Positions 48,005-62,773 of a stretch of DNA of 64,000 bases are shown here, one piece after another. Within the stretch, counting starts at the first letter, position 1, and each line of letters starts with the position of its first letter. This DNA is from a virus. Location: positions 1 through 64,000 of the IMG/VR virus record IMGVR_UViG_3300020469_000038; one strand, written 5' to 3'. Under the pieces are notes generated by a model. It was not told where the DNA came from and did not search any database. It saw only the letters and a program-made list of their open reading frames with translations. Made by a program: the position numbers and the translations under genes.

Positions 48005-48930
48005 TGCCAGTATCATCCGGAAATCAAATACTTGCCGCAGACTTTAATGATCTAAGTACTCTAATCACAACTACATTAGGTACTGGAGCAGGCCAGTATG
48101 GTTACGGACAAGCAATTGTAAGCGGAACAGTTACAGCAGGCCAAAGAATTGAAAAGCAAGAGTTTGATAAATTAAGATTTGACTTAATGAGTGTGCTTAT
48201 ACATCAAACAGGTGTGTTACCTAGTCCTGTATTTGCAAATATTACAAATCCTATCCTTGCTACAGCATCAGAACCTTTTCAAAGTTATACAAATTTAATA
48301 CAAGCAGCAAGAGGTGATAGATTTGTTGTATCACAAAAGAACCAATCTGTTGATACTATTGATACAAAAACGTGTGGTACTTGGTCCAATTTAGCAGTTA
48401 GTGAATTAGAAATGACTTTTGCATCTGCAAATGATGCAAGATACTTTTGGAATTCAGGTAGTAGAATTAGGATTGATACTAATCTATTAGATGGTTATCC
48501 TTCAACACAACAAAACAATGATTGGAATACTATACTTGACAGTTCAGGTAATGTAGAATTTGGTGCAAACGCACAGACTACTGGTCCTGGTGGCGGAGTA
48601 CCAATTAACGCATACGACTTAACAAACTCATATCAAACATTTTATGAATTTACTTCATCGGCACCATATGCTGCTAATAGGTATAAACTTTCAGCAAAAT
48701 GCAATCAACCATCAAACTTAACAGGTGTAGCAACGGTTTTCACATTAAAAATTGAATTGATTGACGATTATACAGACGATCCACAACCTGGTCCACTACC
48801 AGACGATGAAGTGTTTGGAGTTGAAATAGAATGTCAGCACGTTAAAGTTACCGGTACTTTACAACCTGACTTAGATCCGTGGGTTTTACCTGTGCCAACT
48901 TTCAATATGTCCAACATCACAGCGGCTTAA
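48004..48930 (+). CDS. Virion structural protein, paralog A
   Basis: A 308-residue protein that shares a layout with the next gene: an N-terminal helical part (GYGQAIVSGTVTAGQRIEKQEFDKLRFDLMSVLIHQTG), then a beta-rich part with ARYFWNSGSRIRI, NDWNTILDSSG, YEFTSSAPYAANRYKLSAK and FTLKIELIDDYTD. It ends in a Pro/Asp-rich loop and TGTLQPDLDPW. Pairs like this are found among structural genes near the fibre block in marine T4-like phages. A role as a baseplate or fibre-associated protein is likely but not proven. It follows fibre paralog 4 with a one-base overlap. Confidence 0.75.
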   Translation: MPVSSGNQILAADFNDLSTLITTTLGTGAGQYGYGQAIVSGTVTAGQRIEKQEFDKLRFDLMSVLIHQTGVLPSPVFANITNPILATASEPFQSYTNLIQAARGDRFVVSQKNQSVDTIDTKTCGTWSNLAVSELEMTFASANDARYFWNSGSRIRIDTNLLDGYPSTQQNNDWNTILDSSGNVEFGANAQTTGPGGGVPINAYDLTNSYQTFYEFTSSAPYAANRYKLSAKCNQPSNLTGVATVFTLKIELIDDYTDDPQPGPLPDDEVFGVEIECQHVKVTGTLQPDLDPWVLPVPTFNMSNITAA

Positions 48931-48950
48931 ATAGTGTAAGAGGTAACTGA

Positions 48951-49997
48951 ATGCCAGCAACGCACGACTTAATAGATCCAGATTATTACAACGATATGCA
49001 ACTTAAGATACGCCGTGTCTTAGGCGACGGTAAGTCTGATGGATTTGGTTGGCTAGGATACGGACAGACTGTGCTAAGTTCACAAGTTAGTACTAGTGAT
49101 AAAGTTAGTGTCCAGCAGTATAGTGATTTACGATACGATATTTGGAACGCTTATAATCATCTTAACAATGCATTACCAAGCGGATCAAGTCAAGTTAATA
49201 TGCTTGAAGTTACAGAACGTAAAAAAATTAGGTATATGGATCCGACATCATCTACTACTCCAACAATGCCTGTTGATAAGTGGGGTGCTTTTGTAAACAC
49301 CATTTATGCTAATGCAAGAAATTTAGCAGTAGCAGGACAACGTAGAACTGTAAATCACGGATCATCGTTTCAAACTTGGCCAAATGCAACATATGGAGAT
49401 AATTGGAGCGATTCAGTTATTTGTATTGTACAGGTACAGTTTAGCGATTTAGATGAGAGTAGACATTTTTTTAACAGCGGTAGCAGTATTGATATTACGT
49501 CGACACGCACAGGCGGATCTAGTACAAATCAAAATGCATCTTGGACATCTATTTTAACATCTGCAGGAACACAAAAATTTAGCGGTAATCATCCAGGCAC
49601 TGGAGCAGGCCCTACATTTAACGGATCTAACTTTTACAAAACTACAAGCACATTTACAAATCCATTTGTTGATGTAGTAGGCAGTAGTCCTTATTCATTA
49701 AATAGATATAGAATATTTGCAAGAACACCCAACCAAGCAAATCCATATCTTACAGGCGCAGACACAATTGAATTCCGCATTGAGTTTGTTGATGATCACG
49801 AAGAACAAGGCGGACCACCGGTTGGCGGACCACTTAATCCAGGTGATGGCGGTTATGGCCCTGACGTTGTAGACGGACAACTTACGGTTACTGTACAAAC
49901 AACTGAAGCAACAGGTACTTTACAACCAGCAACATCAGGTAATTTTAACATTGCTACACCTACAGTGAACATTGGCGCAGTAATAGAAATTAGTTAA
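48951..49997 (+). CDS. Virion structural protein, paralog B
   Basis: A 348-residue paralog of the gene before it. Matching parts are GYGQTVLSSQVSTSDKVSVQQYSDLRYDIWNAYNHLN, SRHFFNSGSSIDI, NASWTSILTSAG, VGSSPYSLNRYRIFAR and FRIEFVDDHEEQ, followed by a Gly/Pro-rich loop and TGTLQPATSGN. The helical part is longer and includes VTERKKIRYMDP. The order of shared motifs makes tandem duplication the simplest origin. A weak TTAAATAG motif lies upstream, with AGAGGTAACTG as ribosome binding site. This gene ends the structural block. Confidence 0.75.
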   Translation: MPATHDLIDPDYYNDMQLKIRRVLGDGKSDGFGWLGYGQTVLSSQVSTSDKVSVQQYSDLRYDIWNAYNHLNNALPSGSSQVNMLEVTERKKIRYMDPTSSTTPTMPVDKWGAFVNTIYANARNLAVAGQRRTVNHGSSFQTWPNATYGDNWSDSVICIVQVQFSDLDESRHFFNSGSSIDITSTRTGGSSTNQNASWTSILTSAGTQKFSGNHPGTGAGPTFNGSNFYKTTSTFTNPFVDVVGSSPYSLNRYRIFARTPNQANPYLTGADTIEFRIEFVDDHEEQGGPPVGGPLNPGDGGYGPDVVDGQLTVTVQTTEATGTLQPATSGNFNIATPTVNIGAVIEIS

Positions 49998-50075: not shown

Positions 50076-50423
50076 ATGCAAAATGAATACAAAGATGCTT
50101 TAGAATTTTCAAAGTATCGTCAAACACTTGCTGTTCAGCGCAAAACACTAAAAGAAAAGATTGAAGCCAGACTTACATATGGTAAAAACGGCGGAATCTT
50201 TAAGATTGACAGAACTTTATTAAACTTTGTTGAAATGCTAATCTACAAAGATAGATCTGAAAACATTGTAATTTTAGATGAAAATGAAAATCCAATTTTA
50301 GTTGAAAACTTAGTTGAATTTAGAGATGAAATTTTTGATAGATATTTTAGTGCTACATTTGAGTATCACGAAGAATATACAAAAATTAAAAAAAGCAGAT
50401 CAGTAGAGTCATTAGTATCGTGA
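50076..50423 (+). CDS. Hypothetical small protein at the head of the accessory operon
   Basis: A 115-residue, highly charged protein. Residues 1-40 are helical (YRQTLAVQRKTLKEKIEARL); the middle has GGIFKIDRTLLNFVEMLI, and then DENENPILVENLVEFRDEIFDRY. No catalytic motif is visible. Similar small proteins occur in marine T4-like genomes and I know no role. It has a strong AAGGAG ribosome binding site and its own late-promoter-like site. The next gene starts with GTG in a four-base overlap with its stop. Confidence 0.75.
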   Translation: MQNEYKDALEFSKYRQTLAVQRKTLKEKIEARLTYGKNGGIFKIDRTLLNFVEMLIYKDRSENIVILDENENPILVENLVEFRDEIFDRYFSATFEYHEEYTKIKKSRSVESLVS

Positions 50424-51271
50424 AAAAAGGCGTAGTAATATTTGCACACAATAATAGGCAGATAGATTATGCAAAGATGGCACTAGTCTCAGGCGGCCTT
50501 GCTAAAAAACATCTAGGTGTTCCTGTTAGTTTAGTAACAGACCAGTCAACAATTGATTGGTTACGTGAATCTAACTTATGGGATAAAGCAGAAGAAACTT
50601 TTGAACACATTATTGATGTAGAACGTCCTACAGATTTACAACAACGCAAATTTAAAGACGGTAAAGAATCTGTAACAGCACCATTTAAAAATAGTAATAG
50701 ATCCAGTGTTTGGGATCTTACTCCTTACGATCGAACATTAATGATTGATTGTGATTACTTTATTTTCTCAGATTCACTAAATGAATATTGGGACTGTGAC
50801 AGTGATATCCTTATTAGTACAAAGTACAATGATGTTCAAGGAGATAGAATAGGTTACCTTGATAGGTACATCAGTGATACAGGTGTAAGGCTGTTATGGG
50901 CGACAACAGTAATGTTTACAAAAAATGAAGATACGAAAGTATTTTTTGAATTAGTAAAACATATTAAAGATAATTACAAAAAGTTTGCTGACATTTTTAG
51001 ATTCGATAGTCGAATGTATAGAAATGACATTTCATTTGGTATTGCAAGACATATACTTTATGGTTTTGAAACAGACAATGATTATGCAATGCCTCCGGTA
51101 TTATCAGTACCGGATATGGATCTTGTTTATGATGTTAACGAAAATGGAATACAAGTTCTCACAGCAAATTTAAATGATTACACTTTATGTAATGTTAAAG
51201 ATAGAGATATTCACATAATGAATAAACAATCTATTACAAGAAACATTGATAAGTTTATGGAGTTAGTATGA
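50420..51271 (+). CDS. Glycosyltransferase-like protein, GT-A type (first)
   Basis: A 283-residue protein that starts KKGVVIFAHNNRQIDYAKMALVSGGLAKKHLGVPVSLVTD, a nucleotide-sugar-like Rossmann start. It has D110-C-D112 in LMIDCDYFIF, the DxD metal motif of GT-A enzymes. The region after it (ATTVMFTKNEDTKVFF) and HIMNKQS near the end are in the order seen in GT8-like enzymes. Substrate is unknown. GTG start in overlap with the upstream stop; its own stop overlaps the next ATG by four bases. It belongs to a run of sugar genes. Confidence 0.75.
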   Translation: MKKGVVIFAHNNRQIDYAKMALVSGGLAKKHLGVPVSLVTDQSTIDWLRESNLWDKAEETFEHIIDVERPTDLQQRKFKDGKESVTAPFKNSNRSSVWDLTPYDRTLMIDCDYFIFSDSLNEYWDCDSDILISTKYNDVQGDRIGYLDRYISDTGVRLLWATTVMFTKNEDTKVFFELVKHIKDNYKKFADIFRFDSRMYRNDISFGIARHILYGFETDNDYAMPPVLSVPDMDLVYDVNENGIQVLTANLNDYTLCNVKDRDIHIMNKQSITRNIDKFMELV

Positions 51272-52113
51272 TAGACTTTGGTTATTTAATTATTGTCAAC
51301 GAAGGTAATGATACAAACTATACTCGGCTTGCTTATGCACTTGCATTAAGCATTAAGAATACACAAAAAGAAGGGTATGATAAAGTTGCTCTTGTGATTA
51401 ATGACAAACAGCACATTAAAAACTTTACATCAACTTGGGTATTTGACCACGTAATAGAATATCAAGGACCAGAAGGTTGGGATAGTAGATCCTATATGGA
51501 TACTGTAACTCCTTTTGCAAATACAGTTTGCTTAGATGCAGATATGTTGTTTTTTAGAGATTACAGTCACTGGGCAGAATACTTTATTAAACATAGCGAA
51601 CTATATGTTGCAAACAATTCGTATACATATAGAGGAGACCTTGTAACAAGTGATCATTATAGAAAAACGTTTACAGCAAATCAACTACCTAACCTGTATA
51701 GTTTTTACACTTTCTTTAAAAAGGATAGTGATCTAGCAAAAGAATTTTTTAATTTACAACGTCATATTATTAAAGACCCGCATAAATTTAGCAATGAATT
51801 TTTACCTACTCACAAACCTAAAGTAGTAGGCACAGACGAAGCATTTGCACTAGCAGCAAACATATTAGATATAGCAGATGATATTGCATATCCTTTAGAG
51901 TTTCCCCGTGTTGTACATATGAAAGGTATGATACAAAATTGGCCTTATCCTGCAGACACAGTAAGTGATCACGTAGGCTTTTACTTTGATAGAAATGCAC
52001 AAGTAAAGATAGGCAACTTTCAGCAAACAGATATTTTACATTATGTAGAAAAAGATAAAATAACACTAGAAACAATTAACATATTGGAGGAAATAGCGTG
52101 GAAGAAAAGATAA
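51268..52113 (+). CDS. Glycosyltransferase-like protein, GT-A type (second)
   Basis: A 281-residue protein with a layout like its neighbour: FGYLIIVNEGNDTNYTRLAYALALSIKNTQ, then NTVCLDADMLFFRD with D90-A-D92 as the DxD motif, NLYSFYTFFKKDSDLAKEFF, VGTDEAFALAANIL and VVHMKGMIQNWP. This is the order of GT-A enzymes with a DxD and later acceptor-site residues. It is probably a distant paralog of the gene before it. The next gene starts inside its last five codons (GTG at 52098), after AGGAGG. Confidence 0.75.
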   Translation: MIDFGYLIIVNEGNDTNYTRLAYALALSIKNTQKEGYDKVALVINDKQHIKNFTSTWVFDHVIEYQGPEGWDSRSYMDTVTPFANTVCLDADMLFFRDYSHWAEYFIKHSELYVANNSYTYRGDLVTSDHYRKTFTANQLPNLYSFYTFFKKDSDLAKEFFNLQRHIIKDPHKFSNEFLPTHKPKVVGTDEAFALAANILDIADDIAYPLEFPRVVHMKGMIQNWPYPADTVSDHVGFYFDRNAQVKIGNFQQTDILHYVEKDKITLETINILEEIAWKKR

Positions 52114-52742
52114 GAAATATTCCAGACCTTCCAGACTTTGATGAATGGATTGCTAATTGGAAGCCACCTGAATTAAATTACTTGGCAGCATTTGATCCTG
52201 AAACAGGAAAGGTAATGTGCGTAGGTCCTGACTATTCTATTGACAGAGATCGTTATAAGAAAACTATTGATATTGATACTGAAACTGCAATGGCAATCAT
52301 TGAAGGTGAAATCAAAATGAATAAATGTTTTGTAGATGTACAGTCAGGTAGTTTAGAAATTACTGAAGTACAAAATTTATTTAAAATAGATGATGTATTA
52401 CATAGAATTGTTAATATCAAGTGGGCTGAAATCGATGAGCCAGATATTGTTGTATCACGTAAAGGCGATATGTTTACAGTTCAATTATCAGAAAAGTACG
52501 GTGGCACATATAAACTAAACAGCGACACTCCAGTAGCAATCAGAAAAATATTCTGGGACGGCGTAACACTATTGAATTTTGATGTTTGCGAGTACAACGA
52601 TCCACATACAAGTCATCATACTGCAACTGTAGCACTAGATGATCTAGTAGGAAAAAGTTTTGAATTTACTTGCGAGTGTCCAGAAGATGCAAGTGTGTTT
52701 ACACGCAGATTATTTAAAAATTATGTATTCGAGGAACTATGA
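52098..52742 (+). CDS. Hypothetical protein between glycosyltransferase genes
   Basis: A 214-residue acidic protein starting with GTG (52098), preceded by GGAGGAAATA. The N-terminus is helical and acidic (EEKIRNIPDLPDFDEWIANWKPPELNY), followed by a beta-rich part with FDPETGKVMCVGPDYSID and IDTETAMAIIEGEI. The C-terminal half has VVSRKGDMFTVQLSEKYGG and THHTATVALDDLVGKSFEFTC-like strands. I do not recognise a family. Its TGA overlaps the ATG of a 53-residue gene. It may assist the enzymes around it, but nothing in the sequence shows how. Confidence 0.65.
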   Translation: MEEKIRNIPDLPDFDEWIANWKPPELNYLAAFDPETGKVMCVGPDYSIDRDRYKKTIDIDTETAMAIIEGEIKMNKCFVDVQSGSLEITEVQNLFKIDDVLHRIVNIKWAEIDEPDIVVSRKGDMFTVQLSEKYGGTYKLNSDTPVAIRKIFWDGVTLLNFDVCEYNDPHTSHHTATVALDDLVGKSFEFTCECPEDASVFTRRLFKNYVFEEL

Positions 52743-52900
52743 CAGAAGAAGAAGTTGGTAAGCGACTAACAGAACAGTTTCCAAAGATGATGGCCGTTGT
52801 AAACGGTGATACAACACAAGAGGAAAAACTAAAAGCCGCTTTAGATTATACAGAAATATTAAAAGATTTAGAAAAGGTATTAAATGACAAAAGTAGTTGA
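52739..52900 (+). CDS. Small acidic protein of 53 residues
   Basis: A short frame MTEEEVGKRLTEQFPKMMAV...LEKVLNDKSS fills the gap between two genes. Its ATG overlaps the upstream TGA (ATGA at 52739), and its TGA at 52898 is inside the next gene. It is likely two helices. Overlap at both ends and exact fit in the gap support a real gene. No function recognised. Confidence 0.65.
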   Translation: MTEEEVGKRLTEQFPKMMAVVNGDTTQEEKLKAALDYTEILKDLEKVLNDKSS

Positions 52901-53789
52901 GTTTGATGTTTTCTTTTTAAGTTACGATGAACCTAATGCAGATTTACATTATGCTGATCTTTGTAATAAAGTTCCGTGGGCACAACGCATACACGGAGTA
53001 AAAGGATCTGACCACGCACACAAAGCAGCAGCAGAAGCATCAGAGACAGACTGGGTGTTAACTGTAGATGCAGATAATATTGTAGATCCTAAGTTCTTTG
53101 ATTTAGACTTAGATATGACAGATGAAAAAATACGTGCATACAGTTGGTGCGGAAGAAATAATGTTAACGGATTGCGTTACGGAAACGGCGGTTTGAAGTT
53201 ATGGCATCGTCAGCATATTCTTGATATGAAAACACACGAAAATGCAGACAGTGAAAGAGCGCAAGTTGACTTTTGTTGGGAAGAAGGTTATAGAAACTTT
53301 CCTGTAACATTTAGCGATACAATTATTAACGACACACCTTTTATGGCGTGGCGTGCAGGCTTTCGTGAAGGAGTCAAGATGACACTAGACGGTGGACTAC
53401 AAGTTCCACCTATGGAAATTGAAGAACGCATTTGGTGGCACAACCTACATAGATTACGAGTATGGAGTACAGTTGGTTCTCATATTGAAAACGGATTGTG
53501 GGCTATCTACGGTGCAAGACTAGGAACATATCTTACAAATTGTACAGACTGGGATCATATACAAGTAAGAGATTTTGAAAAGTTACGTGACCTTTATGAC
53601 AATACTTGTAAAAAATATGAAAAACAAGACGGGCTAGAACAAGAAGTAGCACGTTTAGGAACAGAGATAAGAAGTGAACTAGGATTAGAATGGCCTGACT
53701 TTGATAAACAACAAAGTCGATACATTATGGCTCTATATGAAGAAACTATTAGATTAGGTACAACCTATTATAGTAAAAAGTATGTATGA
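52884..53789 (+). CDS. Glycosyltransferase-like protein (HGVKG/VDAD type)
   Basis: A 301-residue protein with FDVFFLSYDEPNADLHYADL (about 7-26), RIHGVKGSDHAHKAAAEAS (about 35-53) and D62-A-D64 in LTVDADNIVD, the order of GT2-like GT-A enzymes. Then RAYSWCGRNNVNGLRYGNGGLKLW gives the acceptor loop found in many phage glycosyltransferases of this kind. The C-terminus is helical. It is paralogous to the second domain of the next gene. The sugar and acceptor are unknown. It starts inside the 53-residue gene and overlaps its follower by eight bases. Confidence 0.8.
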   Translation: MTKVVEFDVFFLSYDEPNADLHYADLCNKVPWAQRIHGVKGSDHAHKAAAEASETDWVLTVDADNIVDPKFFDLDLDMTDEKIRAYSWCGRNNVNGLRYGNGGLKLWHRQHILDMKTHENADSERAQVDFCWEEGYRNFPVTFSDTIINDTPFMAWRAGFREGVKMTLDGGLQVPPMEIEERIWWHNLHRLRVWSTVGSHIENGLWAIYGARLGTYLTNCTDWDHIQVRDFEKLRDLYDNTCKKYEKQDGLEQEVARLGTEIRSELGLEWPDFDKQQSRYIMALYEETIRLGTTYYSKKYV

Positions 53790-54837
53790 TATCTTTTTTG
53801 TTAGCAATGGAGAGTGTGATAGTAATGCTTGGACAAGATTCAAGCAAAAGTTTTCTAATGCACAAAAAATAGAAAACTGTAAATCGTTCGAGCAAGTTGC
53901 TAGTAAAAGTTTAACAAAACACTTTTGGGTTGTATGGGATAATTTAGAACTTGCACAAGACTTTCAATTAGATTATCGTGTTCCTGAATGGGACGCTGAC
54001 TATGTACACGTTTTCCGCAATGGAGAATATTACGATGGAATATGTATTTTTTCTAAAAAAGCACGCATACTACAACGTGAGTGGGATTACAGATTCTTTA
54101 CAAGTAAAAAAGAAATAGATATACAAGCAAGCAGTCCTAGGTTATATGATGTTGCATTTATTTCCTATCACGAACCTAATGCACAAGTAAATTATAACAA
54201 GTTACTAGAAAAAGCACCTAATGCAGTATGGATTAAAGATGTTAAAGGTATACATCAGGCCCATATACAAGCAGCAAAGCAATGCACTACTGAACTATTT
54301 TATATTGTAGACGCAGACGCAGAGATTTTAGATAGTTTTACGTTTGATATGCAAATACCATACTATGATTTCAACGCTAGAAAAAGTGTTTATGTATGGA
54401 GAGGCCGAAATCCAATTACAGATTTAGAATACGGATACGGCGGTGTTAAATTATTTCCAAGACAAGCAGCAATTGATATGGATGTGAACAGTCCAGATAT
54501 GACTACAAGCCTTTCTGACAGTTTTAAAGCAATGCAAGAAGTAAGTAATGTTACAGCATTCAATACAGACGGCTATAGTACTTGGAAAAGTGCATTTAGA
54601 GAATGTTGTAAGTTAGCAAGTAGAACTATTAAAGGTCAAAAAAATGATGAAACAGATGAAAGACTTAGTAAATGGTGTAGCGATTACGGTAGGGACAGGC
54701 CCTTTGGGGACTATGCTATACAAGGCGCCAGAGCCGGTAGGAAATATGGTGTTAGCAATAGTGCTGAACCTGATGCACTACTCAAGATAAACGATTTCGA
54801 ATGGTTAAAGGAACAGTTTGATGCACGACAAGGATAG
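53782..54837 (+). CDS. Two-domain glycosyltransferase-like protein with a degenerate first domain
   Basis: A 351-residue protein. Residues 122-351 repeat the family of the gene before: YDVAFISYHEPNAQVNYNKLLEKAPNA, DVKGIHQAHIQAAKQC, D177-A-D179 in YIVDADAEI, and VWRGRNPITDLEYGYGGVKLF. Residues 1-110 look like a decayed copy, with YDIFFVSNGECDSNAWTRF, SFEQVASKSLTKHFWVVWDN in place of VDAD, and YVHVFRNGEYYDGICIF. The first copy has lost the metal-binding DxD and is probably non-catalytic. The start at 53782 overlaps the gene before by eight bases. Confidence 0.75.
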   Translation: MYDIFFVSNGECDSNAWTRFKQKFSNAQKIENCKSFEQVASKSLTKHFWVVWDNLELAQDFQLDYRVPEWDADYVHVFRNGEYYDGICIFSKKARILQREWDYRFFTSKKEIDIQASSPRLYDVAFISYHEPNAQVNYNKLLEKAPNAVWIKDVKGIHQAHIQAAKQCTTELFYIVDADAEILDSFTFDMQIPYYDFNARKSVYVWRGRNPITDLEYGYGGVKLFPRQAAIDMDVNSPDMTTSLSDSFKAMQEVSNVTAFNTDGYSTWKSAFRECCKLASRTIKGQKNDETDERLSKWCSDYGRDRPFGDYAIQGARAGRKYGVSNSAEPDALLKINDFEWLKEQFDARQG

Positions 54838-56188
54838 AATAGAGAAGTTTATTCCTATAATGGATGAAATATCTCCAACTTTCTGTATGGCTAAGTGGCA
54901 TCATACTACTATCTACTTGCAAACAGGCGAAACACATAGTTGTTATCATCCTGCTCCGCACAAGATTCCATTAGAAGGCCTAAAAGAAAATCCAAGCCAA
55001 CTACATAACACACCGCAAAAGAAACAAGAACGTCAACAAATGTTAAATGGCGAAAAGCCTAGTGGATGTCAGTATTGTTGGAACATTGAATGTATGGGTA
55101 AAGATTACATTTCAGATAGAAAAGAGCGTAATGCTAGTATTCATACCGAAGAAAGATTTGCTGCAATAAAACAAGACCCGTTGGCAGATGTAAATCCGCA
55201 GTATGTAGAAATTAGTTTTGGTAACGAGTGTAATTTTAAGTGCGGGTATTGCCATCCTAAACATAGTAGTTCATATCACAAAGAAATTAGAGACCACGGA
55301 CCATACACGATGGTAAAAAATCATCGTAACGATATTGATTGGTTTAAGATCCATAAAGAAGAAGACAATCCCTACGTTACAGCATTTTGGGAATGGTGGC
55401 CTGAACTGCGTAAGACTCTTACAATCCTACGTATTACAGGAGGCGAACCACTGTTACAACAAAGTACTTGGCGTATGTTTGATGAACTAGAAAAGAATCC
55501 AATGCCTAATCTAGAATTAAACATCAATAGTAACTTTGGTGTAAAGAGTATACTGATTGAACGTTTTGCAGACAAAGTAAACAGTCTTATTGCAAAAGGG
55601 TGTATTAAAGATTTCAAAGTTTTCACAAGTATGGACACTTGGGGTAAACAAGCGGAATATATTCGTACAGGATTAGATTTAGAGTTATGGGAAAAGAACT
55701 TTGATATCTATATGAACAAAACAAATCATCCGTTAACCTTTATGGTAACATTTAATATTCTTACAGTAACAAACTTTGATAAGTTTTTACATAAAGTATT
55801 AGAGTGGCGTAAAAAATATAATACAGATAATCAAACAAAATGGCAACGTATTAGATTTGATACTCCATACCTTAAAGAGCCATTACAGTATGATATGAAT
55901 ATTCTTCCTAAAGAAGAATTTATGCCGTATATGAAAAAACACTTACAGTTTATTGCAGACCAAGTAGACGATGCAGACAGATACAAATTTAGTATAATGG
56001 AATATGAAAAGTTTAGACGTGTTGTTGATTATATGGCAAGCACAGAGTATACTGCACAAAAAATAACAGAAGGTCGCAGAGATTTTGCTGCTTGGTTTAG
56101 AGAATACGACAGAAGAAGAAATGTAAACTTTAGTGAAACTTTTCCAGACCTTGTAAATTTTTATGAGGACTGTTGTGGCTTGGTATAA
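54821..56188 (+). CDS. Radical SAM protein (twitch type), first copy
   Basis: A 455-residue protein from ATG 54821, chosen over a TTG three bases upstream. The radical SAM cluster motif C137-x3-C141-x2-C144 (CNFKCGYC) is preceded by VEISFGNE. ITGGEPLL (about 205-212) is the GGE motif that binds SAM, and TSMDTWGKQAEYIRTG comes after it. The N-terminus has C22 in TFCMAKWHH, C41, and C83/C86/C91 (GCQYCWNIEC), cysteines that can hold an auxiliary cluster or metal. Such proteins are common in marine phages but their substrate is unknown. It starts inside the last codons of the glycosyltransferase. Confidence 0.85.
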   Translation: MHDKDRIEKFIPIMDEISPTFCMAKWHHTTIYLQTGETHSCYHPAPHKIPLEGLKENPSQLHNTPQKKQERQQMLNGEKPSGCQYCWNIECMGKDYISDRKERNASIHTEERFAAIKQDPLADVNPQYVEISFGNECNFKCGYCHPKHSSSYHKEIRDHGPYTMVKNHRNDIDWFKIHKEEDNPYVTAFWEWWPELRKTLTILRITGGEPLLQQSTWRMFDELEKNPMPNLELNINSNFGVKSILIERFADKVNSLIAKGCIKDFKVFTSMDTWGKQAEYIRTGLDLELWEKNFDIYMNKTNHPLTFMVTFNILTVTNFDKFLHKVLEWRKKYNTDNQTKWQRIRFDTPYLKEPLQYDMNILPKEEFMPYMKKHLQFIADQVDDADRYKFSIMEYEKFRRVVDYMASTEYTAQKITEGRRDFAAWFREYDRRRNVNFSETFPDLVNFYEDCCGLV

Positions 56189-57107
56189 TTCAAAACTACA
56201 ATCTGATCCATCACACGGCTTTATGCACGACATCTATAGAGTAGATCTTCGCGATGACGGCATAAGACCTGCTCACATAAAAATACCAGCACAAAATATA
56301 GAAATATTTGCAAAGAGACACAAAAAGAACTTGCTAATCAACATAGGTGAAAGTTGGACATATGGAGAAGGATTATACGGTGTTGCAACAGCAAAAGCAG
56401 AATTTGATTTAGGTAGTATGTTAAGGTTTAGTTATGGCGCAAAACTAGCAACTATGTTAGATACAGATCTTTATCAATACGCTGTACCAGGCAACAGTAA
56501 TCTTACAATGTCGTACACACTTAAACGTATAATGAAAGAACTTGATACAAGCAAGTACAACAAGATATATTTGAGCTTTCAGGTTACAGAACCTAGTAGG
56601 GAAATGCAGCAACTACAAGATCTTGTAAACTGGAATCATCCACTTAAAAACTTGTATGATAAGAGTTATCTAAGAAGCAAAGAGTTGTCTTTACAAGGTT
56701 GGTTAGAAAAATATGACTCTTATTTGTTCAGTTACATTGATGACATAGTAAGCAAGTATAGCAATGTAAGCACCGTAGTATGGAAAAACTTCTGTAGTAC
56801 TAACACACAAAACAATTATAGTTTTAATAACATTGATCAATCTTGGATACAGTTTAGTGCTGAAGTAAATGGACACAAACTTAAAATGCCAAGTTTTTAT
56901 AATGCAGGTTGGCTTGACGATTTAATGCGGTATGAAGAAATTAATTTTAGCAAACACAAATATATTCAAAAGCAATTACAAGCAATAGAAGAGTCTAACA
57001 AATACTTAGGCAAATGTCCAGATCATAGACCTCACCCTAATGAGGTGCAGCATAATTTATGGGCATTGAATGTGTATTTTAAATCAGGATGGGCTAATGA
57101 ACAATAA
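56163..57107 (+). CDS. SGNH-hydrolase-like protein, first copy
   Basis: A 314-residue protein. LLINIGESWTYGEGL (about 57-71) supplies block I with S64 in GES (GDS in classic enzymes), VPGNSN gives the Asn block, and DHRPHPNEVQH (287-297) fits the C-terminal Asp/His block. This suggests an esterase or acetyltransferase of the SGNH fold acting on sugars. Similar proteins occur in phage surface-sugar clusters. The middle is helical and divergent. The ATG overlaps the end of the radical SAM gene by 26 bases; GTG at 56175 is another possible start. Confidence 0.7.
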   Translation: MRTVVAWYNSKLQSDPSHGFMHDIYRVDLRDDGIRPAHIKIPAQNIEIFAKRHKKNLLINIGESWTYGEGLYGVATAKAEFDLGSMLRFSYGAKLATMLDTDLYQYAVPGNSNLTMSYTLKRIMKELDTSKYNKIYLSFQVTEPSREMQQLQDLVNWNHPLKNLYDKSYLRSKELSLQGWLEKYDSYLFSYIDDIVSKYSNVSTVVWKNFCSTNTQNNYSFNNIDQSWIQFSAEVNGHKLKMPSFYNAGWLDDLMRYEEINFSKHKYIQKQLQAIEESNKYLGKCPDHRPHPNEVQHNLWALNVYFKSGWANEQ

Positions 57108-58284
57108 AACATTTTGCATTTATCCTTGGATCCATATGTATGTAAATCCAGACGGCAGTGTTTTACCCTGTTGTGTAGGCGAATATGACAAACACCTAGG
57201 CAACGTTAGAGAAAACACAATCGAAGAAATTTGGAATAATGACAAATACAAAACTCTAAGACGTAATATGTTAGAGGGTAAAAAATGTGCAGAGTGTAAG
57301 GCGTGCTATCAACAAGAAGATAGCGGTAACGAAAGTACACGCATAAGCAAGAATAAAGAATTTGCACATCTAGTACCACTAGTACAAGATACACTAGAAG
57401 ATGGAACATATCCGGAAATGACACTGCGACACTTTGATGTAAGGTGGAGTAACATTTGTAACTTTAAATGTAGAAGTTGTTCTAGTACGTATTCAAGCAC
57501 GTGGGCTCAAGAAGATAGTCGTAATGGTAAGCATAAAGAAATATTCATAATGGCAGATGGCGATGATAACAGTCGTTTATATAAACAGTTTGAGCCGTAC
57601 TTTAAAGATATAGAAAGTTTTTATTTTGCAGGCGGCGAGCCGTTAATGACTGACAAGCATTATGCAATACTAGAACATTTAATTGCAACTAATAACACAG
57701 ATGTTAAGATTAGTTATAACACTAACATTAGTAATTTGCATTATAAAAATAAAAGTGTAATTGAGTTATGGAAACAGTTTCCTAATATACAAGTATTTGC
57801 AAGTCTTGATCACTATGGCGATAAAGCAGAATATATTAGAGAAGGAACAAACTGGAGCAAGATTGAAAAAAATATTAGATTAATTAAACAAGAAACACCG
57901 CACGTTAGATTAAACTTTAGTGCTGTGATAAGTGCTTTCAATGTTTTTTCAATTACAGACTTTTTAGATTATGTGCTTAGAGAAGGCTTATTTGACACTA
58001 ATGTTTCCCCTACTTTTTATAATATTGTACATCCTGAATATTACAGTACTAGTATTATAAATGATAGACTGAAGTGGAGTGTAATTAATAAAATAAAAGC
58101 AAAGTCGCACAAGTATAATGCACACGTACAAGGACTATTACGAGATGTAGTTAGACATTTAGAAAGTAGTGTATATGATGAAAGTCTTCAGGAACAGTTT
58201 ATAGTACACACTGATTACTATGATAAAATACGCAATAGAAACTTTTTGAAAACTTTTCCTGAACTAAAGGAAATAATGGAATGA
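57097..58284 (+). CDS. Radical SAM protein (twitch type), second copy
   Basis: A 395-residue protein from ATG 57097, in which the conserved text begins at once (MNNKTFCIYPW). The N-terminal part CIYPWIHMYVNPDGSVLPCCVGEY and GKKCAECKACYQQEDSG carries cysteines for an extra cluster. C121-x3-C125-x2-C128 (CNFKCRSC) is the radical SAM motif, and FAGGEPLM the GGE motif. This is the common twitch-domain architecture. It is a distant paralog of the gene at 54821. The start overlaps the SGNH-like gene by 11 bases and the stop overlaps the next gene by four. Confidence 0.87.
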   Translation: MNNKTFCIYPWIHMYVNPDGSVLPCCVGEYDKHLGNVRENTIEEIWNNDKYKTLRRNMLEGKKCAECKACYQQEDSGNESTRISKNKEFAHLVPLVQDTLEDGTYPEMTLRHFDVRWSNICNFKCRSCSSTYSSTWAQEDSRNGKHKEIFIMADGDDNSRLYKQFEPYFKDIESFYFAGGEPLMTDKHYAILEHLIATNNTDVKISYNTNISNLHYKNKSVIELWKQFPNIQVFASLDHYGDKAEYIREGTNWSKIEKNIRLIKQETPHVRLNFSAVISAFNVFSITDFLDYVLREGLFDTNVSPTFYNIVHPEYYSTSIINDRLKWSVINKIKAKSHKYNAHVQGLLRDVVRHLESSVYDESLQEQFIVHTDYYDKIRNRNFLKTFPELKEIME

Positions 58285-59519
58285 AAATATACTTTGACAA
58301 CTTAGAACTAGATCAATCCAACTTACCTCAGTTTGAAACACACGGAAATAACAATTGGTGGCTAACAAGTCCAGGTAGTATTCTTAAAAGAGAACTACGT
58401 AATATGGAAGTTGAATATCATAAACTGCTAGACTGGAATGAGTGCGGGTTATATTTCATTGATGTAAATGGAGATCCTAATTGGTGGTCAGGTGAAAATA
58501 AAGGTACAGGTCCAAAGCACATACTACATATGGTACCAAGCGGTATTTTAGAATTAGTAAAAGCAAAGAAACTTAGACTTGTTATACTTGCAGACAAAGA
58601 AGGTGGCCCAATGGTCACTAATCATTATGATGTGTTTAGAGCAACAACTAACATAATGCGTGAACGTAAGTATCCGGCGAATAGTGTTTTAATATTACAA
58701 GGTAATACTAAAATTGAAGCAGACTATACTGCTTGGTTAGAAAAGAATATGGAAGACCGTTTGTTTGATGTACAGTATAGCAATCATTTTGGTAAGATAT
58801 TTTTTGATAACAAAATGCCAGAGCGTCCTTGTATATATGATGCAATGCATAATCCAGAATCAAATGACTTTAACAGTTTAAACAGAGTATACAGGCCGCA
58901 TCGTGGTGCACACTTACATTACCTTGCAAAAAACAATTTGCTTGATAAAGGTCGTGTAAGTTGTAATCAACTTAAAGATAATGATATTTTGTCTGCAAGG
59001 CTTGCGGGCGTTACTCCTAGTGAATTTACAGAATTAATGACACAGCATTATCCTTTATACCTTGATGGTAACTGGGAAAATACAAATGCTGCGTGGAACT
59101 ATAATGCAGAACTATATCAAAATACATTGCTAACTGTAATTACAGAAACTATCTTTATAGATAATTCTAGTTTTGTAACTGAAAAAATATTTAAACCTAT
59201 TGCACTAGGACATCCTTTCTTGTTAATTGCAGGCAGCGGCACACTTAACGGTCTTGAAGAATTAGGCTTCAAGTGTGACTTTTTAGGGTTCGGCACAGAG
59301 TATGATAGTATAGAAGATCCTAAAACAAGGTTAGATGAAATACATAATATATTAGAAACTTGGATATCTCTTGACAGAGATGAAAAACTAAAACGTGTCG
59401 GTGATAGTTTTGAAAATATAATTCATAACTGGGAACATCTACGTAAGTCAAATTTTTATCACGATGCTTTACACAAAGCAATTTTAAGAGGTAAGGAATA
59501 TTTCAATGAAGCAGTTTAA
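58281..59519 (+). CDS. Glycosyltransferase-like protein with a TEKIFKPIALGHPF motif, first copy
   Basis: A 412-residue protein. The C-terminal third has TVITETIFIDNSSFVTEKIFKPIALGHPFLLIAGSG, NGLEELGFK and YDSIEDPKTRLDEIHNI. This resembles the donor-binding end of GT-B enzymes such as GT10 fucosyltransferases (SEK-x5-G-x-P). The N-terminal part has no clear motif but includes a Trp-rich NNNWWLTSPGS and PNWWSGENKGTG. Paralog: the gene at 60285. Substrate unknown. Overlaps the radical SAM gene by four bases and the SGNH-like gene by 14. Confidence 0.7.
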   Translation: MKIYFDNLELDQSNLPQFETHGNNNWWLTSPGSILKRELRNMEVEYHKLLDWNECGLYFIDVNGDPNWWSGENKGTGPKHILHMVPSGILELVKAKKLRLVILADKEGGPMVTNHYDVFRATTNIMRERKYPANSVLILQGNTKIEADYTAWLEKNMEDRLFDVQYSNHFGKIFFDNKMPERPCIYDAMHNPESNDFNSLNRVYRPHRGAHLHYLAKNNLLDKGRVSCNQLKDNDILSARLAGVTPSEFTELMTQHYPLYLDGNWENTNAAWNYNAELYQNTLLTVITETIFIDNSSFVTEKIFKPIALGHPFLLIAGSGTLNGLEELGFKCDFLGFGTEYDSIEDPKTRLDEIHNILETWISLDRDEKLKRVGDSFENIIHNWEHLRKSNFYHDALHKAILRGKEYFNEAV

Positions 59520-60285
59520 AGACTACAAAAGATTTTTTGCATTTGGTTGCAGTATGACAAACTATTTTTGGCCTACTTGGGCAGATATAATTGGTACCGA
59601 AGTACCTAACTACTACAACTACGGTAAAAGCGGTGCAGGTAATATGTTTATTAGTAATGCACTAGTAGAAGCAAACAAGAAGCATAAGTTTACACAAGAT
59701 GATTTAGTTGTTGTTATGTGGAGCAGTATTTCACGTGAAGATAGATACAGAAAACGCAACTGGGTTACACCCGGAAACATTTATACACAAAATGAAATTG
59801 ATCCCAAGTTTGTATATGAATGGGCAGACAGTAGATATTACTTGTTAAGAGATTTAGCAATCATTGAAATGGCAACAGCATATTTAGATGCACTACCTTG
59901 TGATACAAAAATGTTAAGTATGAGTCCTATGATCGAATTACAAATAAGTGGCGAATACACAAGACCTTCAGAAGAATGGCATACAGGTGTAATTGATACA
60001 TATCAAGATACAATAGACAAAATTAATGAACCTATTGTTAGTAATGTATATAATGGCCGCTGGCCGCAAACACCAATCCGTGGACATAACGGTAAAGGAC
60101 AAACAGCGGACTATCATCCTACTCCATTAGGACACGCAGAGTATGTAAGTAATATGTTTAAGGATTTTGAATTTACAGAGAAGATGAGAAACTTTTCTGT
60201 AGAGATGGATGAAAAAGTTCATCTTTGTAAAACACTAGATGATACTAATAAGTTTTGGCAGCAAAGGCATCAGACTAGATTATAA
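59506..60285 (+). CDS. SGNH-hydrolase-like protein, second copy
   Basis: A 259-residue protein. FFAFGCSMTNYFWPTWADIIG (about 10-30) is block I with S16 in GCS, NYGKSGAGNMFISNAL holds the Gly/Asn block, VVVMWSSISREDRY the next strand, and ADYHPTPLGHAEYV the C-terminal Asp-x-His-Pro block. The fold and residue order are those of GDSL/SGNH esterases, so it may add or remove acetyl groups on sugars. It is more typical than the first copy. ATG lies inside the end of the glycosyltransferase-like gene. Confidence 0.78.
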   Translation: MKQFKDYKRFFAFGCSMTNYFWPTWADIIGTEVPNYYNYGKSGAGNMFISNALVEANKKHKFTQDDLVVVMWSSISREDRYRKRNWVTPGNIYTQNEIDPKFVYEWADSRYYLLRDLAIIEMATAYLDALPCDTKMLSMSPMIELQISGEYTRPSEEWHTGVIDTYQDTIDKINEPIVSNVYNGRWPQTPIRGHNGKGQTADYHPTPLGHAEYVSNMFKDFEFTEKMRNFSVEMDEKVHLCKTLDDTNKFWQQRHQTRL

Positions 60286-61442
60286 TGGCGTGTTTGAATT
60301 CAACAAATCTAATATATTTGCAAACGTATAATCCACGTGAGCCACAAAAGATTAAGATCAATAGTAGTGTAGGTTCTCAAATTAAAACAAATGAGAAACT
60401 AGACTTTTATTATATTCAGTTTTCAGACAAAGAAAGTTTTAAAATTTACGACATTATTGATATTGTACCTGCTGCTGACTTAGATAAAATTAAACAAGGT
60501 AAAGCATTTTTAGTTTTAGATAACGCATTAGAATATTTTACTGATACAGTAGATAGCATTTATAGAAATATTATTCTTAAACATAATGTACCAGCAGAAC
60601 AAATTATATTTTTAAGTGCTGTACCTAATATGATTGACACTATTAAAAGTGTAGCAGCAAAATACAAATTACCGCAAATCAAAGTAGATTATTTTAATGT
60701 ATTTGAAGCAACTGGTATCGATGCAATACATAAAAATAAAAACATAATTGGTATTACAAAAACAAAGAAATGGCCCAAGAAGTTTTTATGTCTTAATAGA
60801 AGATGGAGAGCTCATCGTCCGTTAATGATGTTAATGTTATATGAACGTAATCTAATTGATAAAGGACACATAAGTTTTGGTAAGAGCGATAGAGGTGATA
60901 ATTGGAATAGTTCATTTAGAGAGTTACGACACATATACAATGACAGCGATTTTATAAATCAATTAATACAGAGTAATAAACAAATTGTAGATATGCCAAA
61001 CCTTTACTTGGACACAAATGATCTTGTTACAAATAGAGCAGAGTACGAATCTAGTATTATAAAGTATTACAAAGAAACGTATTTTAGTGTTGTAAATGAA
61101 ACAACATATCACGAAGGCATTCCGTTCTTTAGCGAAAAAATATTTAAAGTTATGGCAATAGGACATCCGTTTGTGTTAGCAACAGTACCAAACAGTTTGC
61201 CTATTTTAAGAGGTTTAGGATACAAAACATTTAGCCCTTACATTAATGAAACATACGATAGTATACAAGATGACGGTGACCGTATGACAGCAATAATAGA
61301 TGAAATTGAACGCTTGTGTAATATGGATAAAACCCAAACACTTGAGTTTATTGCTAGTGTAAGACCTATTTTGGCACACAATTATAGTGTGCTTGTAGCA
61401 AAGAAAAACAAGTGGAATATTAGTACTAGAGTTAATTATTAA
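60285..61442 (+). CDS. Glycosyltransferase-like protein with a SEKIFK motif, second copy
   Basis: A 385-residue paralog of the gene at 58281. Shared parts are FSVVNETTYHEGIPFFSEKIFKVMAIGHPFVLA, RGLGYKTFSPYINETYDSIQDD and RMTAIIDEIERL. The N-terminal half is an alpha/beta domain with FLSAVPNMIDTIK. KKWPKKFLCLNRRWRAHRPLMMLMLYERNLIDKGHISF (about 162-199) is typical of this phage protein family. GT-B-like activity is inferred from the C-terminal motif. It shares one base with the SGNH-like gene and is the last gene of the accessory run before a 143-base gap. Confidence 0.7.
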   Translation: MACLNSTNLIYLQTYNPREPQKIKINSSVGSQIKTNEKLDFYYIQFSDKESFKIYDIIDIVPAADLDKIKQGKAFLVLDNALEYFTDTVDSIYRNIILKHNVPAEQIIFLSAVPNMIDTIKSVAAKYKLPQIKVDYFNVFEATGIDAIHKNKNIIGITKTKKWPKKFLCLNRRWRAHRPLMMLMLYERNLIDKGHISFGKSDRGDNWNSSFRELRHIYNDSDFINQLIQSNKQIVDMPNLYLDTNDLVTNRAEYESSIIKYYKETYFSVVNETTYHEGIPFFSEKIFKVMAIGHPFVLATVPNSLPILRGLGYKTFSPYINETYDSIQDDGDRMTAIIDEIERLCNMDKTQTLEFIASVRPILAHNYSVLVAKKNKWNISTRVNY

Positions 61443-61514
61443 GGCGCCTTAAACGCATTTTAAGCGTCATACAGCAGTGTTATACACTAAGAGCTACAGT
61501 TACGCTATACTGCT
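61441..61514 (+). other. Palindrome and hairpins after the accessory operon
   Basis: The 143-base gap to the next gene has the perfect palindrome AAGGCGCCTT (61441-61450), which overlaps the stop codon. It also has ACGC/GCGT (61453-61467), AGTGT/ACACT around TAT (61476-61488), and a wider AGCAGT/ACTGCT pair (61473-61514). None is followed by a clear T run, so a terminator is uncertain; a leader for the dehydrogenase gene is the alternative. Confidence 0.4.
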
Positions 61515-61585
61515 ATAAACCACGTTTAAATGCACTGTAAGACGGAGATTGTAAATATGTTTATACCGAATTTGGGGGAAGTAAC

Positions 61586-62773
61586 GTGAAGATAGGATTT
61601 ATTGGATTAGGAAAATTAGGTCTGCCTTGCGCAGAAGTAATTGCCAAAAAAGGGCATAGTGTGCTAGGATATGATGTTAACAAAAACATCGATAGCGACT
61701 ATGTAATTGTAGAAGACACAATTCAAGAAACAGTTAAAGATAGAGACATTGTGTTTATTGCAGTGCCAACACCGCACGATCCTTCCTATGACGGTAGAGC
61801 ACCTACAGCACATTTAGAACCAAAAGATTTTTCATATGATATTGTAAAAGAAGTTATGACTGAAGCAAACAAGCATATGAACAACGATCAGTTACTTGTT
61901 CTTATTAGTACAGTATTACCAGGCACAGTACGTAGAGAGTTTGTACAGTTAGTTACAAATCCACGTTTTGTTTATAATCCATATTTAATTGCAATGGGAA
62001 CAGTTGCTTGGGATATGGTCAATCCAGAGATGGTAATGATTGGTACAGAAGATGGAACTGAAACAGGTGATGCAAAACAACTGGTTGATTTTTACAAGTC
62101 CATAATGGATAACTTTCCACGTTATGTAATTGGTACGTGGGACGAATGTGAATGTATTAAAGTTTTCTATAACACCTTTATCAGCACAAAAATAGGACTT
62201 GTTAATATGATACAAGATGTTGCACAACGTCAAGGTAATATTAATACAGATGTAGTTACTACTGCTTTAGCAGAAAGCACGCAACGTATTATGGGGCCAA
62301 GTTATATGAAAGCAGGTATGGGCGATGGCGGAGCGTGTCATCCAAGAGATAATATTGCACTGCGTTATATGGCAAAGAAACTAGATCTTGGTTATGATAT
62401 TTTTGATGCAATTATGAATGCACGTGAAGTACAGGCAAAAAACATTGCACAAAAATTATGTGATATTGCAAAAGAAAAAGAACTTCCTATTCTTATTAAC
62501 GGTATTGCTTATAAACCAGGTGTACCTTATGTTGACGGAAGTTATGCTTTACTAGTTGCACAATATTGTACAGAGTATGGCTATAATCCTATGCAGGTAG
62601 ATCCATTAGTATATGGACCTGACAAAGGACCTTTCAGAGCAGTTGTTCTTCTTGCTCATCCAGAGATGTATGTAGATGTTACTGATGATAGTGTTGTAGT
62701 TGATCCGTGGAGAGAACATTCTTCAAGTAAGTATGAAGTTGTTCATTACGGTAATACTAGAGAATTGATTTAG
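61586..62773 (+). CDS. UDP-glucose/GDP-mannose dehydrogenase family protein
   Basis: A 395-residue NAD-dependent dehydrogenase. GFIGLGKLGLP (4-14) is the NAD-binding glycine motif, STVLPGTVRREF (108-119) the STVxPGT motif, and GMGDGGACHPRDN (244-256) has C251, the expected catalytic Cys (usually GGxCxPKD). Enzymes of this family oxidise UDP-glucose to UDP-glucuronate or related sugars in two steps. The final domain (about 300-395) is shorter and more divergent than in UDP-glucose dehydrogenase. It starts with GTG at 61586 after GGGGGAAG. It could feed the glycosyltransferases upstream. Its end overlaps the convergent gene by 17 bases. Confidence 0.88.
   Translation: MKIGFIGLGKLGLPCAEVIAKKGHSVLGYDVNKNIDSDYVIVEDTIQETVKDRDIVFIAVPTPHDPSYDGRAPTAHLEPKDFSYDIVKEVMTEANKHMNNDQLLVLISTVLPGTVRREFVQLVTNPRFVYNPYLIAMGTVAWDMVNPEMVMIGTEDGTETGDAKQLVDFYKSIMDNFPRYVIGTWDECECIKVFYNTFISTKIGLVNMIQDVAQRQGNINTDVVTTALAESTQRIMGPSYMKAGMGDGGACHPRDNIALRYMAKKLDLGYDIFDAIMNAREVQAKNIAQKLCDIAKEKELPILINGIAYKPGVPYVDGSYALLVAQYCTEYGYNPMQVDPLVYGPDKGPFRAVVLLAHPEMYVDVTDDSVVVDPWREHSSSKYEVVHYGNTRELI

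Follow-up and report, generated by a model that had tools for sequence, protein, structure and literature searches.

A block of thirteen plus-strand genes follows the tail-fibre genes of an uncultured virus and occupies positions 50076-62773 of the analysed stretch of DNA (64 kb, positions 1 to 64,000 of the 70,168-base IMG/VR record IMGVR_UViG_3300020469_000038; hereafter the window). The block contains two GT8-like, two GT-A-like and two GT-B-fold glycosyltransferases (GTs), two radical S-adenosylmethionine (SAM) proteins, two SGNH-like proteins, a nucleoside diphosphate (NDP)-sugar dehydrogenase (DH) and two conserved proteins, x0 and x3 (Table 1). We consider it highly probable that this locus is a phage glycan module. 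Ten of the twelve adjoining gene pairs overlap; the other two are separated by 141 bp and 143 bp, and the 141-bp gap is spanned by a 53-aa open reading frame (ORF). An earlier note, written from the letters and their ORFs, had reported near-universal overlap, the order radical SAM, SGNH, radical SAM, GT, SGNH, GT and a dehydrogenase behind it. All of this holds, every ORF that it named is present on the plus strand, and the order is also kept in relatives. The second of its radical SAM starts, 57097, is backed by comparison with the related locus L004 (the ORF opens at 57070), and the first has to be moved from 54821 to 54818, where that ORF opens.

Table 1. Module genes, in order, and other features of the virus record
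Feature	Position	Strand	Evidence or remark
x0, 115-aa conserved protein, first gene of the module	50076-50423	+	kept in many relatives
A1, GT8-like glycosyltransferase	50420-51271	+	glycogenin profile match; D110-x-D112 and C-terminal H265 invariant in the family
A2, GT8-like glycosyltransferase	51268-52113	+	A1 paralogue
x3, 214-aa conserved protein	52098-52742	+	alignment A12, 36 members, 36-86% identical
53-aa ORF across the x3-G1 gap	52739-52900	+	L004 has no such gap
G1, GT-A-like glycosyltransferase	52884-53789	+	VDAD motif; weak GT2 Pfam matches
G2, GT-A-like glycosyltransferase	53782-54837	+	G1 paralogue; one N-terminal degenerate half-GT repeat
R1, radical SAM protein, N-terminal twitch domain	54818-56188	+	NF033640, 321.7 bits
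S7, predicted SGNH/GDSL-fold protein	56163-57107	+	AlphaFold2 (AF2) and Foldseek; GESWTYGE, C-terminal H...HP
R2, radical SAM protein	57097-58284 (ORF opens at 57070)	+	NF033640, 392.3 bits
B1, predicted GT-B-fold glycosyltransferase family	58281-59519	+	VTEKIFK; B2 paralogue; family alignment member
S10, SGNH-like protein	59506-60285	+	FGCSMT ... GAGN ... DYHP; profile cross-matches with the S7 family
B2, GT-B-fold glycosyltransferase	60285-61442	+	SEKIFK; AF2 and Foldseek
DH, UDP-glucose/GDP-mannose-type dehydrogenase	61586-62773	+	PF03721, PF00984; GGACHPRD catalytic-Cys motif
Tail-fibre gene 46223 with two paralogous virion-type genes	46223-49997	+	PHROG tail-fibre matches (46223); candidate acceptors
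The two virion-type genes, 48004 and 48951	48004-48930, 48951-49997	+	29% identical to each other, E 3e-31; possible acceptors
4678-aa structural protein	24821-38857		matches virion proteins of PA5oct-group jumbo phages; VrlC-like by position and size only
QueE-like radical SAM gene past the window end	about 67052-68026 of the record (L293:4553-5527)	-	

Enzyme families and paralogous pairs

The radical SAM proteins R1 and R2 belong to the family NF033640 (N_Twi_rSAM), whose curated cut-off of 170 bits both exceed over profile positions 1-398 and 1-397, respectively. Among 44 NF033640-type members the GGE motif and C16, C35, C76, C79, C130, C134 and C137 are invariant, the cysteines being the four of the N-terminal auxiliary cluster and those of CxxxCxxC. 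R2 also scores above the Pfam cut-offs of SPASM and Radical_SAM. By profile comparison the N-terminal domain of the family matches the auxiliary-cluster domain of BtrN, an aminocyclitol dehydrogenase of the twitch radical SAM type; the order of domains is permuted, since this domain is C-terminal in BtrN and N-terminal in R1 and R2. Eleven consecutive radical SAM genes were observed on one viral contig (L013:3-13751).

The profile of the GT8-like family matches glycogenin over profile residues 12-122 (E 2e-6), including a shared DxD motif. The second GT-A-like protein, G2, carries a degenerate half-GT repeat (about residues 1-117, with WDN replacing DxD) ahead of its catalytic domain, and its relatives have up to eight such copies (L169:14508-17681), with seven in L202:4949-7867. 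The DxD motif is retained in 249 of 264 terminal domains versus one of 193 upstream copies (lost in 192), and the degenerate repeats are likely to have a binding or spacing role. The earlier note had taken the two proteins with the SEKIFK motif for GTs. This is corroborated by the AF2 model of B2 (predicted local distance difference test, pLDDT, 92), which Foldseek places with Gap1 and OtsA (probability 1.00, template modelling score, TM, about 0.4); the nearest solved folds are Gap1 and trehalose-6-phosphate synthase. B1 is assigned the same GT-B fold by its homology to B2. Among the viral relatives of B2 in BFVD are a protein of Mimivirus LCMiAC02 and a 788-aa protein that carries a sugar dehydrogenase annotation. 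The dehydrogenase is probably of the NDP-sugar type: of its Pfam domains, PF03721 and PF00984 lie above the cut-off and PF03720 below it, and the full-length family TIGR03026 matches with E 3e-49 at 168 bits, short of its cut-off of 190.

The AF2 model of S7 (pLDDT 92) has GDSL and CE2 esterases as its top PDB matches in Foldseek, with probabilities of 0.99-1.00 at modest TM values of 0.3-0.55. The nearest folds are those of GDSL lipases, CE2 esterases, acetyl-xylan esterases and the acyltransferase SsfX3, so that S7 is predicted with high confidence to fold as an SGNH/GDSL esterase type. The block I GES, GN-x-N and H...HP motifs are conserved in S7, and GCS, G-x-G-N and DxHP in S10. PDB sequence searches with the GT-B, GT-A-like, S10 and x3 profiles gave no relative. 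No family match was obtained for x0 in Pfam and PHROG searches, nor for x3 in PDB, in PHROG or in Pfam above cut-off. None of the module proteins in the window has a membrane segment, and their families have essentially none.

The earlier note described a duplicated cluster with five two-copy families. In the pairwise comparison that it had proposed, four of the five pairs are homologous by blastp: A1/A2 (22%, E 2e-6), G1/G2 (32%, E 1e-26), R1/R2 (24%, E 9e-22) and B1/B2 (26%, E 2e-20). The SGNH pair gave no match by blastp and none by hhalign of small alignments; larger profiles of the S7 and S10 families hit members of each other (E 3e-6 and 7e-6), and together with the predicted fold of S7 this makes the two alike at the superfamily level only. 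By position, the GT8-like copies separate in 109 loci with a single misplaced tip, and the GT-A-like copies do so almost perfectly in about 100 loci. For the radical SAM and GT-B genes the separation holds for the most part, with 14 of 136 and 10 of 108 tips, respectively, out of place. This split, clean in the first two families and looser in the others, rules out a recent duplication of a single block. The paired genes are real, and they are old paralogues retained side by side, for which duplicated cluster is an imprecise term.

Module homologues in viral contigs and the phage setting

Viral contigs were scanned with five of the module families, which yielded about 280 loci. Since the sample was drawn with these families, and some contigs enter it through more than one locus, the counts given here reflect layout and not natural frequency. 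The module order recurs widely, as a survey of gene neighbourhoods suggested in the earlier note could show: the typical order in many uncultured viral contigs is x0-A-A-x3-G-G-R-(S7)-R-B-S10-B-DH, with S7 optional. Among 252 non-identical layouts, radical SAM genes occur in 215, GT-A-like genes in 186, GT-B genes in 182 and GT8-like genes in 157, and 89% of same-strand labelled neighbour pairs overlap. Comparison of the window with L004 gave omega values of 0.02-0.19 for all thirteen genes, the lowest being those of R1 (0.024) and R2 (0.028), which indicates purifying selection on every module gene. Such synteny across many non-identical layouts, together with the omega values, exceeds what chance would produce.

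Fusions connect several of the enzymes. In L101, L108 and L138 (the first two look near-identical) a GT-B protein is joined to the sugar dehydrogenase; in L207 its fusion partner is an NF033640 protein, and in L174 it is a radical SAM protein that binds B12. Genes interspersed in the module in relatives include, among the Pfam families listed (25 of 57), NAD epimerase/GDP-mannose dehydratase-like, Polysacc_synt_2, RmlD, RmlC and DegT genes, as well as FkbM, carbamoyltransferase and B12 radical SAM genes. We regard the GT-B fusions that involve the dehydrogenase and radical SAM proteins, along with these sugar-gene neighbours, as the strongest argument for radical SAM proteins that work on sugars.

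In named phages, tblastn of G1, S7, S10, B2 and x3 gave no match, so this search revealed no cultured carrier of the complete module. Vibrio phage K566 interleaves radical SAM and GT genes in the order radical SAM, GT8, radical SAM, radical SAM, GT4-like. A scan of the genome collection with a narrow GT-B alignment yielded four loci. L291 and L292 among them belong to phage, and L289 is ambiguous. The former two combine phage fibre genes with the module in a metagenome-assembled genome (MAG) titled Rickettsiales MED657; its 30 NF033640 matches and fibre genes mean that it is at least partly phage. L289 is a contig of a Pelagibacterales MAG on which two homologues of the GT-B proteins occur with SGNH-like, RmlC-like and epimerase genes and one weak match to radical SAM. 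That MAG has one strong NF033640 match, and its locus may be of phage or host origin.

The window itself comes from a phage, as the earlier note had it: portal, late sigma factor, baseplate and tail-fibre genes are all present, as is a 4678-aa structural protein. The portal shares 49-50% identity with its counterparts in the jumbo myoviruses PA5oct and Phosso, and with the matches of the 4678-aa protein this makes PA5oct-group jumbo myoviruses the nearest cultured relatives. The label T4-like, used in the earlier note, would fit this phage in a wide sense. The 6 kb of the record beyond the window hold exonuclease, QueE, HIT-like and phosphoribosyltransferase genes; the QueE-like gene suggests 7-deazaguanine chemistry in this phage. 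The T4 late-promoter octamer was absent in a promoter scan, so that co-transcription of the module with the fibre genes is not demonstrable by that route.

Proposed pathway, its acceptor and alternative explanations

The best reading of the module is that of a cytosolic system in which a modified sugar is produced, tailored and passed on to an acceptor, and we infer its substrates, the chemistry of its steps and its acceptor as follows. The dehydrogenase, judging by its family, would convert an NDP-hexose to a uronic acid. The radical SAM proteins, with a [4Fe-4S] cluster and an N-terminal auxiliary-cluster domain, could remodel unactivated sugar C-H positions by oxidation, epimerisation, deoxygenation or similar chemistry, with either the nucleotide sugar or the glycan under assembly as substrate. 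The six GTs, two from each family, would assemble a short glycan; to judge from the fusions, the sugar tailored by the dehydrogenase and radical SAM proteins would be the one used by the GT-B pair. The SGNH proteins may put on or take off an acyl group of the sugar, in keeping with their fold. The glycan would then be transferred in the cytoplasm, late in infection, to a protein encoded just upstream, most likely a fibre or fibre-like protein. A phage pathway that makes and attaches an unusual sugar, as envisaged by the earlier note, has good support in the three GT families, the NDP-sugar dehydrogenase, the GT-B fusions and the epimerase, DegT, RmlC and FkbM neighbours.

The acceptor is approached through gene linkage. 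Of the 96 loci that extend far enough upstream, 93 have a homologue of gene 48004 or 48951 right before the module, and the fibre gene 46223 usually comes ahead of it. This near-invariable linkage to fibre-region genes favours virion fibres over a host surface glycan as the putative acceptor, although sequence alone cannot decide between the fibres, capsid and host surface that the earlier note had named. We put the whole mechanism with fibres as acceptor at about an even chance.

Several points weigh against this mechanism. The putative acceptor is its weakest link, and the fibre linkage may stem from shared ancestry or from exchange in a single host-range cassette, and not from enzymes acting on the fibres as substrate. 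The GT-A-like label of G1 and G2 comes from weak matches (best GT2 Pfam score 16.1 bits, below the cut-off of 27.5) and a near-invariant DxD motif. The SGNH proteins, S7 among them, show no clear block III GxND and may thus not be canonical hydrolases. The fusions of GT-B to the NF033640 and the B12-binding radical SAM protein occur on one contig each, and x0 and x3 stand outside the pathway. GTs that are soluble can also work at the inner membrane on the core of lipopolysaccharide (LPS), and the literature on related clusters leans towards modification of the host O-chain (PMC7029224, PMC7824862).

The last two points bear on the strongest competitor, which is possible but the less probable explanation: the enzymes would alter LPS, its O-chain or some other glycan on the surface of the infected cell and so block superinfection. 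Nucleotide-sugar neighbour genes are typical of surface glycans, and such a role was proposed for the GT8 genes of the pelagimyophage host recognition cluster (PMC7029224) and for sugar clusters found in jumbo phages and in cyanophages (PMC7824862). On the other side are the tight linkage to fibre genes and the lack in the module of a membrane GT and of the Wzy-type markers (flippase, polymerase, lipid-carrier transferase), which are also lacking among the neighbour Pfam families listed. The latter evidence is weak, given that a membrane-like segment occurs in 2 of 130 interspersed ORFs versus 8 of 591 in the yardstick, which is no difference and does not separate the virion and host-surface models.

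Glycosylation of modified bases of the phage genome by these GTs is very improbable. GTs of other phages do modify DNA (cited in PMC12619734), and the QueE-like gene makes base modification of the 7-deazaguanine type possible; however, the module lies within the virion-gene region, away from nucleotide-metabolism genes, no base hydroxymethylase occurs among its families or the neighbour families listed, and a sugar dehydrogenase with epimerase neighbours suits glycan decoration better. Equally little credence goes to modification of a peptide or protein backbone by the radical SAM proteins, as for ribosomally synthesised and post-translationally modified peptides, with the GTs secondary. SPASM/twitch radical SAM enzymes often act on peptides, and R1 and R2 have sub-cut-off NCBIfam similarity to peptide maturases. 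Yet the gaps hold no conserved precursor-like small ORF, the gap with the 53-aa ORF being absent from L004, and the radical SAM proteins are fused to GT-B, not to a peptide partner; the modified peptide that the earlier note had offered as an alternative thus finds no support, as the fusions indicate a sugar. A loose gathering of host-metabolism genes near fibre genes with no shared pathway would accord with the separate occurrence of the front half (GT8-like and GT-A-like genes; 57 layouts with only it and radical SAM genes) and the rear half (GT-B with S10 or the dehydrogenase; 44 such layouts), and with the exchangeable radical SAM modules of Campylobacter phages (PMC2853527), but the fixed order in many contigs, overlapping neighbours, fusions and purifying selection make it very hard to sustain.

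Relation to known systems

Cassettes of GT and radical SAM genes near tail fibres are already known from pelagimyophages. Their host recognition cluster, described in 2020, follows VrlC, is bounded by gp14 and includes tail fibres, GT8-type GTs, a UDP-glucose 6-dehydrogenase and radical SAM cassettes (PMC7029224). In contrast to the fixed paired order described here, it is non-syntenic, and no gp14 match was found in the part of the ORFs scanned in the 6 kb of our record beyond the window. Arrays of radical SAM genes, partly as exchangeable blocks, are also known, with 12 genes in one marine T4-like genome (PMC5332604) and 11-12 in Campylobacter phages CP220 and CPt10 (PMC2853527); Fe-S or redox metabolism was suggested for them, whereas here such genes are interleaved with sugar enzymes and in relatives fused to them. 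The sugar and capsule-modification clusters of jumbo phages and cyanophages reported in 2021 share paralogous GTs and sugar-modifying enzymes with the module, and radical SAM and SGNH proteins are absent from the text of that report (PMC7824862).

Virus-encoded enzymes for virion glycans have precedents. The fibrils of mimivirus bear glycans attached by enzymes of the virus, and the Mimivirus LCMiAC02 protein is a structural relative of the GT-B enzymes. Glycosylation of the capsid and tail tube is known in mycobacteriophages (as cited in PMC12619734). The enzyme set of the module is far larger than in such systems and radical-SAM based, and its acceptor is only putative. No earlier description of the paired genes in fixed order, of GT-B fused to other enzymes or of degenerate half-GT repeats in G2 homologues turned up in a limited search of the open-licence literature, and these three are the new features of the module.

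As a tentative and rather unlikely generalisation, widespread large aquatic phages may attach their own radical-SAM-tailored glycan to tail fibres or adjacent fibre-like proteins and recognise hosts through this phage-built sugar, with G2-type tandem arrays, variable in their number of degenerate GT repeats, setting acceptor or glycan specificity. Radical SAM genes have often been noted in large marine phages with no role assigned to them. The GT-B fusions to radical SAM proteins and to the sugar dehydrogenase provide a direct and testable sequence argument for NF033640 in sugar chemistry. If fibres are indeed the acceptor, receptor binding in a large group of aquatic phages would rely on a glycan made by the phage itself.

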